Source: a virus
Length of the DNA stretch: 40,720 nt
Direction: 5' to 3' (one strand)
Virus record (IMG/VR): IMGVR_UViG_3300032053_000178
Location: 1-40,720 of that record
The first letter of the stretch is position 1. Each line of letters begins with the position of its first letter. This document shows positions 4,810 through 40,720 of the stretch, piece after piece. A model generated the notes under the pieces. That model saw only the letters and a list, made by a program, of their open reading frames with translations. It made no database searches and was not told where the DNA came from. The position numbers and the translations under genes were made by a program.

Positions 4810-4973
4810 TTTTAGATTCCAATATGAACGAATTTGTTCTGTTGGTATCGAAAGGATTTACAGAAGACTATGTTCTTTCATTAAGTGATGAGATGAGAAA
4901 GGCCTTTTGCATCATTGCAGAGCAACAGGCTGGTAAAGGTACGTTTAACTTTAACACTTGGAAATACGAATGA
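4495..4973 (+). CDS. Tail assembly chaperone, -1 frameshift product, about 159 aa
   Basis: Slippage at A-AAA-AAA (4800-4806), directly before the zero-frame TAG, opens a -1 frame from 4806 to TGA 4971-4973. The added 55 residues include NEFVLLVSKGF, SLSDEMRKAFCIIAEQQAGKGTFNFNTWKYE-like content split over the segment, matching the usual extension pattern ('MR.AF.....G..G.F...'). Programmed frameshifting in this position is established for lambda gpG/gpGT and P2 E/E'. The ratio is unknown and I did not identify a downstream stimulatory structure. The shifted frame ends in an ATGA overlap with the next gene. Confidence 0.85.
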
Positions 4974-5452
4974 AAGAATTTCAATCATTAGCAGCTTTTC
5001 AGGCTCATATTGAGAAATTGATTGTTGAATTTCCCATTTATGAGAAGAAAGCTGCTAATTTTTTGGGCGAAATTCTAGTAAAAGAAGCAAGAGACAAGAT
5101 AGGACATTTGCAGGAAGGATGGGAAGAATTAAAAGATTCTACAAAAGCAGATAAAGAGCGAAAGGGTTATGTATTTAACGCTGACTACAACCCATTGTAT
5201 AGAACAGGTAAGTTAAGAGACTCCATACACCACGTATTTAATGTTGAGTCACAAACATTATTTATTGGTTCTGATAGCGAAATTATGAAATATCAGGAGG
5301 AGGGGACGAAATATATCCCTGCAAGACCAGTTATAAGTACCACCGTATATCAGGCTCAGCCAGTCATAAACTACGTTTTTGGATCGATGTTGAAACAATA
5401 TGTTTCTGGCGAACCATTGGCATTAAGAAAAGGAACCTATGGAAGCTTATAA
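4970..5452 (+). CDS. Tail completion / virion morphogenesis protein (gpS or HK97 gp10-like), 160 aa
   Basis: ATG 4970 overlaps the TGA of the frameshifted chaperone; an upstream in-frame codon at 4958 lies inside that reading frame. Features visible are a helical N-terminus, RTGKLRDSIHHVF, and GTKYIPARPVIS near the C-terminus. This 'RTG.LR.S...G....YIPARP' layout is typical of the phage virion morphogenesis family (P2 gpS/Mu gpG) and related HK97 gp10 proteins, which complete the tail-head joint. Its place after the chaperone rather than in the neck cluster is slightly unusual. Confidence 0.8.
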   Translation: MKEFQSLAAFQAHIEKLIVEFPIYEKKAANFLGEILVKEARDKIGHLQEGWEELKDSTKADKERKGYVFNADYNPLYRTGKLRDSIHHVFNVESQTLFIGSDSEIMKYQEEGTKYIPARPVISTTVYQAQPVINYVFGSMLKQYVSGEPLALRKGTYGSL

Positions 5453-7160
5453 GATTTGGGCTGCCCTTAATATAAAGGGCGATGCAATTGAAAAAATGAA
5501 AATTTTTCAAGAAAGCATTCGCGCCGCAAATTTTAACATAGGTCTTCTAAATGCAAATCTTGAAAAATTCTCACGACACTTGTCAATGGCTGCGCCAAAT
5601 TTTGCCAGTCTTGCCAAGTCATTTGGCGTAATAAATAAAGAAGGAATGCAAAGTGTTGCTGTATTTTCTAAATATGATGGAATCCTATTAAAAAACAGCA
5701 TTAATACTGAACGTTTATCTCAAAAAACGGCAGTTTTGACCGCCAGATTAAAAGAAGCAAGTCTTGCATCTTCTTCTGGAAAAATTGCTGGGTTTGGTGC
5801 TGGTGCTGCTATGGGCGGCGGCATTGGCATGGGAACTATGGTCGGCGGATATGCGGCATATTCTGGCCTTCATCATGGATTTGAAGCTAACAAAGAATAT
5901 CAACAGACTGGCTTACAATTAAGCGCTAGCGGTGCAACGCCTGCCCAATTGAAAGAAGCCATGGCAATGTCGTTGAATGCTCCAAAGGGTGTTTCATCGA
6001 TTGAGATGATGAAAGTAATCAATACAGCATTTATGGCTTCTAGGAATTTCAATGAAGCCAAAATGATTGCTCCAATGTTAGCTGAAACAGAATTAGGTCT
6101 AAAGCTGACATACGGCAAGCAAATGACAAATGATCAGATGCAGAACTTAATGAAGTTCGCAGAGTTTAGAGCTGGTTCTGATATGTCTCAATTGATTCCA
6201 AACTTAGATGTCGGATCAAAAATAGTGAGCGCTGGTGGTTTCACAATCAAACCAACAAATCTTGCTGCATTTATGAGACGTGGCGCCGGTGTTGCAAGCA
6301 ACATAACTCCTGAAGGTCTTGCTAAACTAGAGCCAGTAATTCAAGAATTGGGAGGTCCATTTGTTGGGACAGCATTGCAAACTCAGCTTATGGCAATGAT
6401 TCATGGAAGCGTTTCTAATAAAAGGCAGGCTGCCGAATTAACAAAATATGGTTTTGCGCACACAATTTATGACCCTAATGGAAGACCGCTTGCAACTGAA
6501 TTTAATAAGAAGTGGATTGATCTTTTTAAAAAAGACCCGCAGCAGTTTGCCAAAGAAATGAATCAGCAATATTTATCTCAAGGAGTTAAGCAAGAAGATA
6601 TATTCAATCATGAAACGCTGGCATTAAAAAATACTCCAGGCAGATTGATAGCTGCAATAAATAAAAATATGGGGAAATCTGATTTAGAAGCTGAATTATT
6701 TAAAACTCAGTTAACCGGTCATGCTTCATATGTTAAAGGTTTAGATATGCCAGCAGGAGCATCAGAGAGATTTAATGCTGCATCCAGCAATATGGCATTG
6801 GCATTTGGCAAGCTTACCTCTGCGCCAGTATTGGCCGGGATGAGAGCAATCTCTTCTGTTATGGAGCACCTTGCTACAGTGTTTAATATTGGATTTAGCG
6901 GCTTTTCTGATACCAATAATTCAAGATTTTCGGATAAGAATATAATGAAAGTATTGAATTCAGTTTTGGCAGGGCCATCAAAAAGTGCTAACGGTAAAAT
7001 ATCAGGGGATGTGTATCTTGATAGCAGGAAAGTTGGAAGGTCTTTATTCCATGGAATGTCTGATGCTATTACTAATTCTGGCGCAATTGGTGGAACTACT
7101 GGACACAATTCTTTGATTTCTCCATCTTCTTCTGCTTTAAATAATTCAGGTGCCCCATAA
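5439..7160 (+). CDS. Tape measure protein, 573 aa
   Basis: Sets tail length and probably helps DNA entry. ATG 5439 has AAAAGGAACCT upstream and overlaps the preceding gene by 14 bases. The sequence is largely helical, with a Gly/Ala-rich hydrophobic stretch at about residues 116-145 (GAGAAMGGGIGMGTMVGGY), typical of tape measures. It is the largest gene between chaperone and baseplate. If about 0.15 nm of tail per residue applies, the tail would be around 85 nm, which is short for a myovirus. No peptidase domain was seen. Confidence 0.85.
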   Translation: MEAYKIWAALNIKGDAIEKMKIFQESIRAANFNIGLLNANLEKFSRHLSMAAPNFASLAKSFGVINKEGMQSVAVFSKYDGILLKNSINTERLSQKTAVLTARLKEASLASSSGKIAGFGAGAAMGGGIGMGTMVGGYAAYSGLHHGFEANKEYQQTGLQLSASGATPAQLKEAMAMSLNAPKGVSSIEMMKVINTAFMASRNFNEAKMIAPMLAETELGLKLTYGKQMTNDQMQNLMKFAEFRAGSDMSQLIPNLDVGSKIVSAGGFTIKPTNLAAFMRRGAGVASNITPEGLAKLEPVIQELGGPFVGTALQTQLMAMIHGSVSNKRQAAELTKYGFAHTIYDPNGRPLATEFNKKWIDLFKKDPQQFAKEMNQQYLSQGVKQEDIFNHETLALKNTPGRLIAAINKNMGKSDLEAELFKTQLTGHASYVKGLDMPAGASERFNAASSNMALAFGKLTSAPVLAGMRAISSVMEHLATVFNIGFSGFSDTNNSRFSDKNIMKVLNSVLAGPSKSANGKISGDVYLDSRKVGRSLFHGMSDAITNSGAIGGTTGHNSLISPSSSALNNSGAP

Positions 7161-19893: not shown

Positions 19894-20217
19894 TTATTCC
19901 TCTGTTCGTTTAATTTCTTTGCCACATTCTGGGCAGTATTTGTAATGCTTGGTTAAAAATTCAAAAAAACTATTGCATGATGTTTTGTAATTTTTGTCAT
20001 TTTTATTTGTCCATTCACAAAATTCATTTTCCTCTTCAAATTCTGGGATTGGGAGCCAGTGGGTTGGATTAAAAAATGCACCCACCGTATCAGACCAAAT
20101 ATTTTCTTCATTGTGGAAAGCTGCTAATTTTGAAATATTTTCATTATTTCCATCATTTACTATAATCCATGTACCATCCTTTGGCGCACTTTCTATTGGT
20201 AACCATTTAAGTTTCAT
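19894..20217 (-). CDS. DUF551-like protein, paralogue A, 107 aa
   Basis: Begins MKLKWLPIESAPKDGTWIIV and contains PTHWLPIPEFEEE in the middle, the pattern of DUF551 phage proteins. The C-terminus adds CPECGKEIKR, a small zinc-ribbon half. The SD GAGGAGACTTTC lies before ATG 20217 and overlaps the upstream gene. Its ends match the gene at 21219-21476 almost base for base, indicating duplication. Function unknown in the family. Confidence 0.8.
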   Translation of the reverse strand: MKLKWLPIESAPKDGTWIIVNDGNNENISKLAAFHNEENIWSDTVGAFFNPTHWLPIPEFEEENEFCEWTNKNDKNYKTSCNSFFEFLTKHYKYCPECGKEIKRTEE

Positions 20218-21524: not shown

Positions 21525-21609
21525 TGGTGGAGAGAGAAGGATTTGAACCTTCGAATCCAGAGGAAACAGATTTACAGTCTGCCTGCTTTAACCACTTGCA
21601 TATCTCTCC
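21525..21609 (-). tRNA. tRNA-Tyr (anticodon GUA) with encoded CCA
   Basis: On the - strand: acceptor stem GGAGAGA/TCTCTCC, U8-A9, D stem TGC/GCA with a GG-containing loop, anticodon stem and loop CTGTAAA with GUA, long variable arm with a TCC/GGA stem (class II, as expected for bacterial tRNA-Tyr), T stem GAAGG/CCTTC with loop TTCAAAT, discriminator A and CCA. The length is 85 nt, the usual size. All key elements are intact, so a functional tRNA is likely. It may compensate for Tyr codon use or resist host tRNA cleavage. Confidence 0.95.
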
Positions 21610-29131: not shown

Positions 29132-29508
29132 TTTTTTGCTCCAAATATTATATTTTTTATTTCATCTAATAGTTCATCTAATAGTTCATCTACACGACAT
29201 GCTCTTACAAATTCAAATTCTTTAACAATAGATTGTATTTCTTCGACCCTTGATGAAATTTTTTCAGCATTGATTTTCACATGACGAAAACAATCAATTT
29301 CTATAAATCCATCTTCATCAAAAAATAATCCGCTACTTTCTAAGTCAGTAGCTTCATTTGATAACCTACGTAAAACGCCATCTTTTGATGAAATGTAAGC
29401 AATTGATTCTCCATTGATTAATAAATTCACATCACCATCACAATCAATAGCTAATGATGCTTCTACTTTTTTTTGTTCTTCTTGCCCTGCTATTTTAAAA
29501 TTGATCAT
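29128..29508 (-). CDS. Hypothetical acidic protein, first gene of the P2 early operon, 126 aa
   Basis: AAAGGAGATAACAAA precedes ATG 29508, 27 bases past the predicted start of promoter P2. Residues show a repeated DELLDELLDE (12-bp DNA repeats at 29160-29190) and acidic EDG segments. No family recognised; an interaction protein is likely from its charge. Confidence 0.65.
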   Translation of the reverse strand: MINFKIAGQEEQKKVEASLAIDCDGDVNLLINGESIAYISSKDGVLRRLSNEATDLESSGLFFDEDGFIEIDCFRHVKINAEKISSRVEEIQSIVKEFEFVRACRVDELLDELLDEIKNIIFGAKK

Positions 29509-29541
29509 TTTGTTATCTCCTTTGGTTAAGTTGATGAATGT

Positions 29542-29570
29542 ATATTACATCTTGAATATTCATAGTGCAA
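29542..29570 (-). promoter_or_regulatory. Leftward early promoter P2 with TGAATATTCA operator
   Basis: On the - strand: -35 TTGCAC (29565-29570), 17-base spacer, -10 TAATAT (29542-29547). The spacer holds the palindrome TGAATATTCA (29553-29562). The same palindrome occupies the spacer of the promoter at 33554-33582. Predicted start about 29535, upstream of the gene at 29508. Confidence 0.7.
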
Positions 29571-29612
29571 GTGTTTTGTTAAATAAATTTGTACTTTTAT
29601 TTATCCTTTAAA

Positions 29613-29630
29613 TTACCGCTATGACAGTAA
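29613..29630. promoter_or_regulatory. 18-bp dyad O1 (TTACYG-N6-CRGTAA)
   Basis: TTACCGCTATGACAGTAA has half-sites TTACCG/CAGTAA around a six-base centre. A second copy lies 71 bp away at 29684. Consistent with a dimeric protein operator; the binder is unknown. Confidence 0.65.
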
Positions 29631-29683
29631 TAATCTGATATATGCTTATTTAAAGGGCGTTTAAGTTATGTTTTTGTTAAAAA

Positions 29684-29701
29684 TTACTGCTATGGCGGTA
29701 A
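29684..29701. promoter_or_regulatory. 18-bp dyad O2 (TTACYG-N6-CRGTAA)
   Basis: TTACTGCTATGGCGGTAA matches O1 with compensating half-site changes (TTACTG/CGGTAA). It ends 11 bases before the -35 of the noncoding RNA promoter, a distance suitable for an activator or for looping with O1. Confidence 0.68.
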
Positions 29702-29712
29702 AAATATTTATT

Positions 29713-29741
29713 TTGCTAACAGCCCTAAGATTGTTTATAAT
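29713..29741 (+). promoter_or_regulatory. Promoter of the predicted noncoding RNA
   Basis: -35 TTGCTA (29713-29718), 17-base spacer, perfect -10 TATAAT (29736-29741), + strand, next to dyad O2. Start predicted at about 29748. No + strand gene follows before 33693. Shares TATAATGCAG with the promoter at 30870-30897. Confidence 0.75.
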
Positions 29742-29747
29742 GCAGGT

Positions 29748-29920
29748 GTACATAAAATATTTTCATTAAGTTTCCTCGATGAAAAGTTGGGGCAATATAT
29801 TTTGACTGCAGCACCCCAATTGCCGCCTACTAGGCGTGTTACCCTGAAGGCGGCAGATGGATGCCCCTAACTGCCATCCATACCCCAATATAGAGGAAAC
29901 TATGTTGGGGTATTTTTTTA
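29748..29920 (+). ncRNA. Predicted regulatory RNA with alternative folds, about 172 nt
   Basis: The RNA runs from the promoter at 29713 to a strong intrinsic terminator. Hairpins visible: TTGGGG (29787-29792) with CCCCAA (29814-29819); TGCCGCC (29821-29827) with GGCGGCA (29849-29855); ATGGATG (29857-29863) with CATCCAT (29875-29881); and the terminator stem. Alternatively AGTTTCCTC (29769-29777) pairs with GAGGAAACT (29893-29901) and TTGGGG 1 pairs with CCCCAA 3 (29883-29888), destroying the terminator. No gene follows on the same strand, so this acts alone. The 29810-29823 segment is complementary to the start region of the gene at 29922-30209. I do not recognise the family. Its length is close to phi29 pRNA, but the location and fold give no reason to link them. 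Confidence 0.72.
29880..29919 (+). terminator. Strong intrinsic terminator of the noncoding RNA
   Basis: ATACCCCAATATAG (29880-29893) pairs with CTATGTTGGGGTAT (29900-29913), a 14-bp stem with one G-U pair and a six-base loop AGGAAA, followed by seven T (29913-29919). It ends next to the stop codon of the following - strand gene. The arms also take part in an alternative fold with the 5' region of the RNA. Confidence 0.88.
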
Positions 29921-29921
29921 T

Positions 29922-30209
29922 CTAATATTTATCCAATTTTCTGTCGATATCCGCTCTCACCAAAAAAGCTTCATCAGCCTCTTTTTCATATTTCTTCAGA
30001 TTAGCTTTAGCAATCTTCATAACAGCGGGAGAAAACTGTGGTCGCTCATTACGAGATGATTTATCGTATTTCATTGTAGAGCAGTTCACTAAGTGCTCCG
30101 AGCAGTTAAATAAATGCTGAAAGATATCTATTTTGGGGATACGCTTATGTTCGTCTATTTGATCATAAGAAACGAATTTCGTGCCGCAATTGCATTTAAT
30201 CTTAACCAT
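29922..30209 (-). CDS. Zinc-ribbon paralogue 3, possible sRNA target, 95 aa
   Basis: Start 30209 overlaps the upstream gene by eight bases; an in-frame codon at 30281 lies inside it. It begins MVKIKCNCGTKFVSYDQIDEHKR, aligning with the two upstream genes (IKC-x-CG, S/TYESI-like, HR), then diverges into a Cys/Asn-rich middle and helical C-terminus. The ribosome-binding region GCAATTGGGGTGCT (30211-30224, - strand) is perfectly complementary to 14 bases of the ncRNA at 29810-29823. The family is unknown; zinc binding is inferred from CxC and Cys residues. Confidence 0.65.
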   Translation of the reverse strand: MVKIKCNCGTKFVSYDQIDEHKRIPKIDIFQHLFNCSEHLVNCSTMKYDKSSRNERPQFSPAVMKIAKANLKKYEKEADEAFLVRADIDRKLDKY

Positions 30210-30426
30210 TAGCACCCCAATTGCACATTTTATTAAGCGCTTCGGTACGTTCTTTCGTGCATTTCTCGCACGTATATTCATTCCTCTGACGTTGAATTAT
30301 TATAAAGTCATCTGTAAGTGCAGAATAAGACGTAGAATGCGGAAAAAACCTATGTTCTGCTTTTCCAGAATCAATTGACTCATATGACACGTCTTTACCG
30401 CAAAAACTGCATTTAATCTTCACCAT
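30202..30426 (-). CDS. Zinc-ribbon paralogue 2, 74 aa
   Basis: Begins MVKIKCSFCGKDVSYESID and has CEKCTKERTEALNKM near the end, giving CxxC...CxxC, a classical zinc ribbon. Starts at the overlap with the upstream stop (TATGG) with GGCGGGGGATA before it. Closely related to its neighbours by the KxKC--CG---S--ESI pattern. Confidence 0.7.
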   Translation of the reverse strand: MVKIKCSFCGKDVSYESIDSGKAEHRFFPHSTSYSALTDDFIIIQRQRNEYTCEKCTKERTEALNKMCNWGANG

Positions 30427-30781
30427 AAATATATCCCCCGCCTAATTTTGAAAATGCTATTCGATCTATTCCCAATTTTTTGGGCTGAGCTCTTTTAATG
30501 CATTTCTCGCACATATATTCATCAATACCATGCATTGTTTTCCTATGCTTTGTTCGGCCGGTTTCTATTGACTCATCTGTTAAAAATTCACCACAAAAAT
30601 TGCATTTGATGGTCATACACCACTCTATTTCTTCAAGCATAGAATCAACTAAATGTAGCGCTAGCGAGGCATTGCTCGTTGCTAAGTAACCGCCATAGGT
30701 TTTGTCGCGCTTTAAGTGCTTTATTACGTCAGCAATCAAGTGCTGAACGTCTTTAAGTTCCTGTAATTTTTTTTCGTTCAT
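30413..30781 (-). CDS. Zinc-ribbon paralogue 1 with helical N-terminus, 122 aa
   Basis: GGAGGAAAA precedes ATG 30781. The N-terminal about 55 residues are helical (LQELKDVQHLIADVIKHLKRD), and the C-terminal part (IKCNFCGEFLTDESIETGRTKHRK, then CEKCIKRA in two pieces) is the zinc-ribbon shared with the next two genes. Function unknown; possibly a nucleic-acid or protein-binding adaptor. Confidence 0.7.
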   Translation of the reverse strand: MNEKKLQELKDVQHLIADVIKHLKRDKTYGGYLATSNASLALHLVDSMLEEIEWCMTIKCNFCGEFLTDESIETGRTKHRKTMHGIDEYMCEKCIKRAQPKKLGIDRIAFSKLGGGYIYGED

Positions 30782-30869
30782 TTTTCCTCCTTTTTAGTGT
30801 TTTAACCAAATTTTAATTAACGTAACTCATTGATATACAATGATAATGCAAAATAACTATCTAAATGTC

Positions 30870-30897
30870 TTGACAGTGTTTTTTTTGTTGATATAAT
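30870..30897 (+). promoter_or_regulatory. Near-perfect consensus + strand promoter
   Basis: TTGACA (30870-30875), 16-base spacer, TATAAT (30892-30897): both hexamers perfect. It reads rightward into a noncoding stretch of hairpins and repeats, opposite to the early genes around it. A palindrome TCATTG-N5-CAATGA sits just upstream (30827-30843). Predicted start about 30904. Confidence 0.8.
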
Positions 30898-30903
30898 GCA
30901 GCT

Positions 30904-31139
30904 ATGTCTTTGACTTTATCTTCTACGTATTTGATCTTGTAGTTGAATTAAATAATTTGACTTACACATAGCGTAGAGTTAATTGTTTTTATTAACTCTA
31001 CAAAGTCCCCCCGGAGGGGGGATTAGGGGGGCGTGTGTTATGTACATCTTCTCAGTACATAACATGCCTTTGACTCTTCTTGATGTTTTTGACTTTGACT
31101 TAGTTTTTGACTTTGACTTAGCTTTTGATCTTGATTTGG
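30904..31139 (+). other. Noncoding stretch with three strong hairpins and tandem 18-bp repeats
   Basis: Downstream of the promoter at 30870: GCTATGT/ACATAGC (30901-30907/30966-30972); GTAGAGTTAAT/ATTAACTCTAC, 11 bp (30973-30983/30991-31001); TCCCCCC/GGGGGGA (31006-31012/31016-31022) with a second G6 run; TGTTATGTAC/GTACATAACA, 10 bp (31036-31045/31055-31064). Four 18-bp units related to TTTTTGACTTTGACTTAG follow (31068-31139). Both strands give only low-complexity reading frames. It could be a structured RNA, a replication-origin or packaging element, or a decayed insertion. Nothing in it is convincingly coding. Confidence 0.55.
31068..31139. repeat. Tandem 18-bp repeats (four units)
   Basis: Units at 31068, 31086, 31104 and 31122. 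The second and third are identical; the first and fourth are diverged. The unit length is a multiple of three and gives repeated FDFDLV-like or KSKSKT-like residues in two frames, which explains the spurious ORFs here. There are no spacers, so it is not CRISPR. Origin-type iterons are a possible reading. Confidence 0.65.
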
Positions 31140-31264
31140 CATTTAAGCATAGTTCTAAGTTGCTTAACTTGTTAATCGTTATGATTAGCCTATTCAATGC
31201 AAAGCCGACTTTAATCTTTTGTTGTTTCGTCCGGCGACCTCTTTTCTATTGTTATAGATTTTTT

Positions 31265-40531: not shown

Positions 40532-40720
40532 ATGGCGTTTACTGATCAGCAAAAAATAGACATTAGACGCCACTGCGGATTTCCAGTTTTTGGTAATGGT
40601 GTGACTGCGTCTCCGCCATCCTTTGGTTACAGGTATTACAAATGGTACATGATTCTTGAGTACCGAATGAACAATCTTTCCGCAGATGAAGAAAGTACGG
40701 TAATCAACACGTACTTATCT
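40532..40720 (+). CDS. Head-tail adaptor-like protein (N-terminal part; gene crosses the window ends)
   Basis: AGGATTATTTGCA precedes ATG 40532. Residues 1-21 (MAFTDQQKIDIRRHCGFPVFG) complete the gene continuing at bases 2-325; the full product is 128 aa. The frame agrees exactly with the circular closure. 'FTDQQK.DIRR.CG' is a familiar opening of this connector-type family. Confidence 0.82.
   Translation, partial: MAFTDQQKIDIRRHCGFPVFGNGVTASPPSFGYRYYKWYMILEYRMNNLSADEESTVINTYLS
40594..40720. repeat. Terminal overlap, right copy
   Basis: Identical to 1-127; see the left copy. Removing one copy gives a 40,593-bp circle. Confidence 0.95.

Follow-up and report, generated by a model that had tools for sequence, protein, structure and literature searches.

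Most of what is known about phage small RNAs (sRNAs) comes from model phages of enterobacteria. The C4 RNA of phages P1 and P7 shares a transcript with its target, the LhrC RNA pairs with Shine-Dalgarno sequences through a C-rich segment, and a moron normally contains a gene for a protein. C4 is 77 nt long and blocks translation of ant, and the sar RNA of P22, of 68/69 nt, pairs with ant mRNA and hinders the initiation of its translation (PMC12197685). The prophage RNA AgvB (~60 nt) binds Hfq, mimics an mRNA and blocks a host sRNA (PMC4104026), and RsaA likewise pairs with Shine-Dalgarno sequences through a C-rich segment (PMC3961350).

The DNA analysed here is that of a metagenomic phage, IMG/VR record IMGVR_UViG_3300032053_000178, and the window comprises its positions 1-40,720. 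A plausible sRNA gene was recognised on the + strand from the following features:

29712-29918, + strand: promoter-to-terminator cassette of ~207 nt, missing from a relative; ends accurate to ~3-7 nt
29713-29741, + strand: sigma-70-like promoter TTGCTA-17-TATAAT, with 10 of 12 consensus matches
29748-29920, + strand: predicted sRNA of ~173 nt, its 5' end placed from the -10 box
29761-29784, + strand: 5' hairpin with loop UAAGUUUCCUCG, by folding
29880-29920, + strand: intrinsic terminator with a 14-bp stem and T7, by sequence and by folding of growing transcripts

The best explanation, to which a probability of about 0.45 is assigned, is that this phage sRNA gene encodes a base-pairing repressor of translation, with the adjacent gene, which starts at 30209, as its likeliest target by start-site occlusion. 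The optional insert 29712-29918, situated between two phage transcription blocks, would yield a + strand RNA of ~173 nt, of which approximately 29799-29823 would pair with -15 to +10 of the 30209 gene. Such pairing in the cell would hide the ribosome site and the AUG and thereby block translation. Through the UUUCCUC of its 5' loop, the RNA may also pair, more weakly, with Shine-Dalgarno sites of other genes.

As with P1/P7 C4, whose complementary stretches are placed in loops, the pairing would be located around a phage ribosome site (PMC12197685). Unlike C4, the candidate sRNA is convergent with its putative target and has its own predicted promoter, and unlike P22 sar, the putative pairing involves a separate site 400 nt away and only 24 pairs. 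By analogy, the mode of action most likely resembles that of C4 and sar, namely occlusion of the start site. The locus is also like those of the EcOnc/AgvB prophage sRNAs, whose convergent genes occupy a tolerated phage insertion (moron) site (PMC4104026), a likeness of arrangement, with sequence compared by Rfam and phage BLASTN searches only. The motif UUUCCUC bears a resemblance, and no more than that, to the C-rich segments of LhrC and RsaA, which are chromosomal RNAs of Firmicutes.

The original prediction had placed a small RNA on the + strand of this locus, and the predicted gene is supported by its promoter, its terminator, its fold and the limits of an indel, which make transcription of the segment as an RNA gene plausible. 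The sequence provides both the own promoter and the intrinsic terminator predicted for a phage base-pairing sRNA. Promoter matches as good as TTGCTA-17-TATAAT often arise by chance; terminators like this one do not. For the + strand the fold has a z-score of -4.75 (29746-29925), or -3.34 without the terminator, and the - strand folds at least equally well (z -5.3); structure therefore cannot pick the strand, and it is the T-run and the promoter that pick the + strand. The slightly better - strand fold, together with a good ribosome site, GAGGAAACTTAATG, on that strand of the insert, is what would be expected if there were no sRNA at all and the insert held a structured - strand leader or remnant (the hairpin followed by GAGGAAACTTAATG and an ORF of 13 codons), or else a fragment in decay, with the + strand features as by-products. 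This is unlikely, given that no - strand promoter was found inside the insert, that the ORF has just 13 codons, that T7 follows the stem on the + strand only, and that the reverse strand, under the interaction model described below, gives no unusual accessible pairing to starts.

Two further readings of the insert were rejected. A hidden protein is not indicated, as the longest + strand frame is without a start codon and returned no tblastn match. A terminator/antiterminator switch was discarded because the AGUUUCCUC/GAGGAAACU helix is only brief in growing transcripts and the terminator wins; no + strand gene lies just downstream of the sRNA terminator.

No Rfam family was matched at gathering scores for the sRNA locus, and the candidate sRNA, provided that it is transcribed, is placed in the broad class of phage sRNAs, outside any Rfam family tested. 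The Rfam covariance model of the C4 antisense RNA found nothing at gathering scores, and nothing at this locus even when E values of up to 10 were allowed, and the best sub-threshold match, NsiR1 (RF02399), scored 26.3 bits against a gathering score of 39 and consisted mostly of the terminator. Among phage and plasmid DNA there were no convincing homologues of the sRNA, and structured patterns found no match in viral and genome collections. A conserved segment sought via CCCCAATTGCCGCC was dropped, as 120 viral stretches fit the pattern but their flanks are unlike the sRNA, so that the matches are due to chance.

The firmest result comes from comparison with a relative. Whether made with proteins or with DNA, the IMG/VR searches for this locus all lead to one contig, IMGVR_UViG_3300037487_001566, which exhibits 80-96% DNA identity to the window over matched pieces. 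Its BLASTN pieces end at 29711 and resume at 29919, with ~207 nt missing, and the alignment agrees. The indel runs from the -35 box to the terminator U-run and so coincides with the promoter and the terminator, suggesting that the segment behaves as a self-contained sRNA cassette of ~173 nt. Segment 29712-29918 has its own promoter and terminator and is absent from a close relative, as is typical of a moron, and the cassette is possibly a non-coding 'moron'. The indel may represent a gain rather than a loss. A terminase search retrieved many more distant phages, none matching the window around the insert, and prophage relatives sought via terminase likewise gave no match at this locus; for co-variation, the one relative found at the locus is itself without the RNA. 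The relative's own terminase (4866-6374 of its stretch L206) looks mosaic, with ~85% DNA identity to the window from 35091 on and a first half without a nucleotide-level match.

The features of the putative pairing are as follows:

29810-29823, + strand: 14-nt pairing segment, the perfect complement of the 30209 start region; extends to 29799
29922-30209, - strand: putative target gene, an ORF of 95 aa, convergent with the sRNA
30211-30224, - strand: target site, the Shine-Dalgarno region of the 30209 gene, located within the end of the ORF upstream
30202-30426, - strand: the ORF upstream, a zinc-ribbon-like paralogue that contains the target site in its final codons

The sequence AGCACCCCAATTGC occurs exactly at 29810-29823 and 30211-30224, and no further match exists in the window even with two mismatches. 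On the - strand mRNA the second copy reads GCAATTGGGGTGCTAATGG, directly upstream of ATG 30209, and the 14-nt perfect complementarity to this ribosome-binding site, on which the original prediction was built, is therefore present. A chance of about 0.05 across the genome, and far less at a start region, had been estimated for such a match. The genome-wide figure is about right: when the putative RNA was shuffled 2,000 times with its dinucleotides preserved, 7% of the versions had a match of at least 14 nt anywhere in the window. With the comparison restricted to -35 to +20 of 72 start regions, 14 nt was reached by 0.5% of 20,000 shuffles. A second 14-nt match of the sRNA, rich in AT, falls within a coding region at 20133, and this, with the 7% of shuffles, makes match length alone weak evidence and not decisive. 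At start regions, by comparison, the complementarity exceeds chance (P 0.005 for the 14-mer; 0.002-0.003 for hybrid energy). Positions 29799-29808 of the sRNA can add 10 pairs, four of them G-U, with the AUG and the next codons, an extension that is weak by itself (P ~0.08, conditional on the 14-mer). Part of the 14-mer, CCCCAA, can instead pair intramolecularly with UUGGGG.

In the relative this complementarity is gone. Its counterpart of the 30209 start region reads GCAATGGGAATTTTCATGG, the best hybrid to the seed region reaches -22.0 kcal/mol vs -44.8 in the window, and its homologue of the 30209 gene contains an in-frame TGA after 20 codons. The RNA, its complement and an intact gene occur together in one phage and are all lacking in the other, a pattern of coming and going together that is suggestive only, with two genomes compared. 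It may reflect an RNA-only moron, in which a mobile sRNA cassette was acquired beside the gene, the seed and the target start were then matched, and sister phages have either both the sRNA and an intact target or neither, although we consider this improbable. So clean a difference in presence between two phages of an uncultured lineage, with the limits of the sRNA falling at those of the indel, would show sRNA genes being gained or lost as discrete units, and would make it simple to test how a target is acquired by a new sRNA.

Pairing was scored across starts with a simplified, purpose-written interaction model that combines stacking energies, short loops and accessibility from ViennaRNA, so that the figures are limited by an approximate energy model and by the automated choice of 72 starts; several ways of scoring were tried, and the P values are uncorrected for that choice. 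The hybrid with the 30209 start (-38.4 kcal/mol) is the strongest among the 72 start regions and beats every other start by 10 kcal/mol (P 0.002 vs 500 shuffles; 0.003 vs 600 genome pieces of 173 nt). Once accessibility is included, the net energy at 30209 is -9.45 kcal/mol, which is fourth of 72, behind 13831, 20217 and 21219. This net rank counts against the proposed control of the 30209 gene. The best net score, -12.5 kcal/mol at start 13831, has a P of 0.01 vs shuffles and is not unusual vs genome pieces (P 0.06), and the third- to fifth-best accessible pairings surpass all 500 of the 500 shuffles. The 5' loop UAAGUUUCCUCG accounts for several of the good net scores; it can pair with generic Shine-Dalgarno sequence and is the best accessible pairing segment of the sRNA to several starts. 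This anti-Shine-Dalgarno-like loop (UUUCCUC) is also complementary to the terminator loop of the sRNA, AGGAAA.

A genuine sRNA might have its chief targets elsewhere, in host mRNAs or sRNAs or at other phage starts reached via UUUCCUC, with the match to the neighbour being coincidental. The accessible, anti-Shine-Dalgarno-like loop, the three starts that outscore 30209 and the second, chance match at 20133 are consistent with this, as is the frequent action of known phage sRNAs on host RNAs (PMC4104026). The 10 kcal/mol lead of the 30209 hybrid and the position of the target as the adjacent gene argue for the neighbour instead, and chief targets elsewhere are, on balance, somewhat unlikely.

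The putative target belongs to a - strand gene group. Three tandem zinc-ribbon-like paralogues lie at 29922-30781. The third retains only half of the cysteine pattern, and its counterpart in the relative is broken; the paralogue at 30202-30426 is 63% identical in the relative. The name "zinc-ribbon gene", given earlier to the 30209 gene, is apt for the half of the signature that it carries, but its product has no Pfam match, nor any PHROG match. The target site lies at the end of the upstream ORF, and ribosomes finishing that ORF would therefore be expected to compete with the sRNA for it.

Because the sRNA gene is convergent with this operon, a read-through operon RNA (30781-29922) would be a perfect antisense of the whole sRNA. 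The stop codon of the 30209 gene sits 2 nt past the sRNA U-run, and a search of 29400-31100 for - strand terminators gave none, as would suit an operon that reads through the insert and is subject there to regulation, RNase III processing or sRNA sponging, the start-site match being secondary. Read-through is only presumed, however, and the separate 14-nt match is left unexplained; this reading is unlikely.

Upstream of the promoter, a further feature is present:

29613-29630 and 29684-29701, no strand assigned: two near-identical 18-bp dyads TTACYGCTATGRCRGTAA spaced by 71 nt; 12 nt separate the end of the second from the sRNA -35 box

The pattern TTACn10GTAA occurs nowhere else in the window, and the relative has retained both copies. 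A tie between the sRNA and a dyad-controlled promoter, as originally proposed, is conjecture, since the relative has the dyads at 29613 and 29684 but lacks the RNA. The dyads are possibly operators of a - strand promoter for the 29508 gene.

Several other features of the window were observed. On the + strand, region 30870-31080 contains a perfect TTGACA-16-TATAAT whose -10 is preceded by TG and which the relative shares. Next comes a hairpin of wholly different sequence in the two phages (TAGAGTTAAT..ATTAACTCTA in the window vs TTGATATAC..GTATATCAA in the relative). Beyond that hairpin lie a C/G-run palindrome and then GTTATGTAC..GTACATAAC. There is no clear + strand gene after this promoter, and the region may hold another RNA, a conserved one, or else an origin. 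At 31080-31150, repeated TTTGACTTTGACTTAG units read as DFDLxFDL or, on the opposite strand, as KSKSKTKS, and the repeat is present but shorter in the relative. A phage-borne tRNA-Tyr (GTA) is present on the - strand at 21525-21609. Positions 1-127 and 40594-40720 form an exact 127-nt direct terminal repeat, and the relative runs across the junction, suggesting a complete genome that is circularly assembled or terminally redundant.
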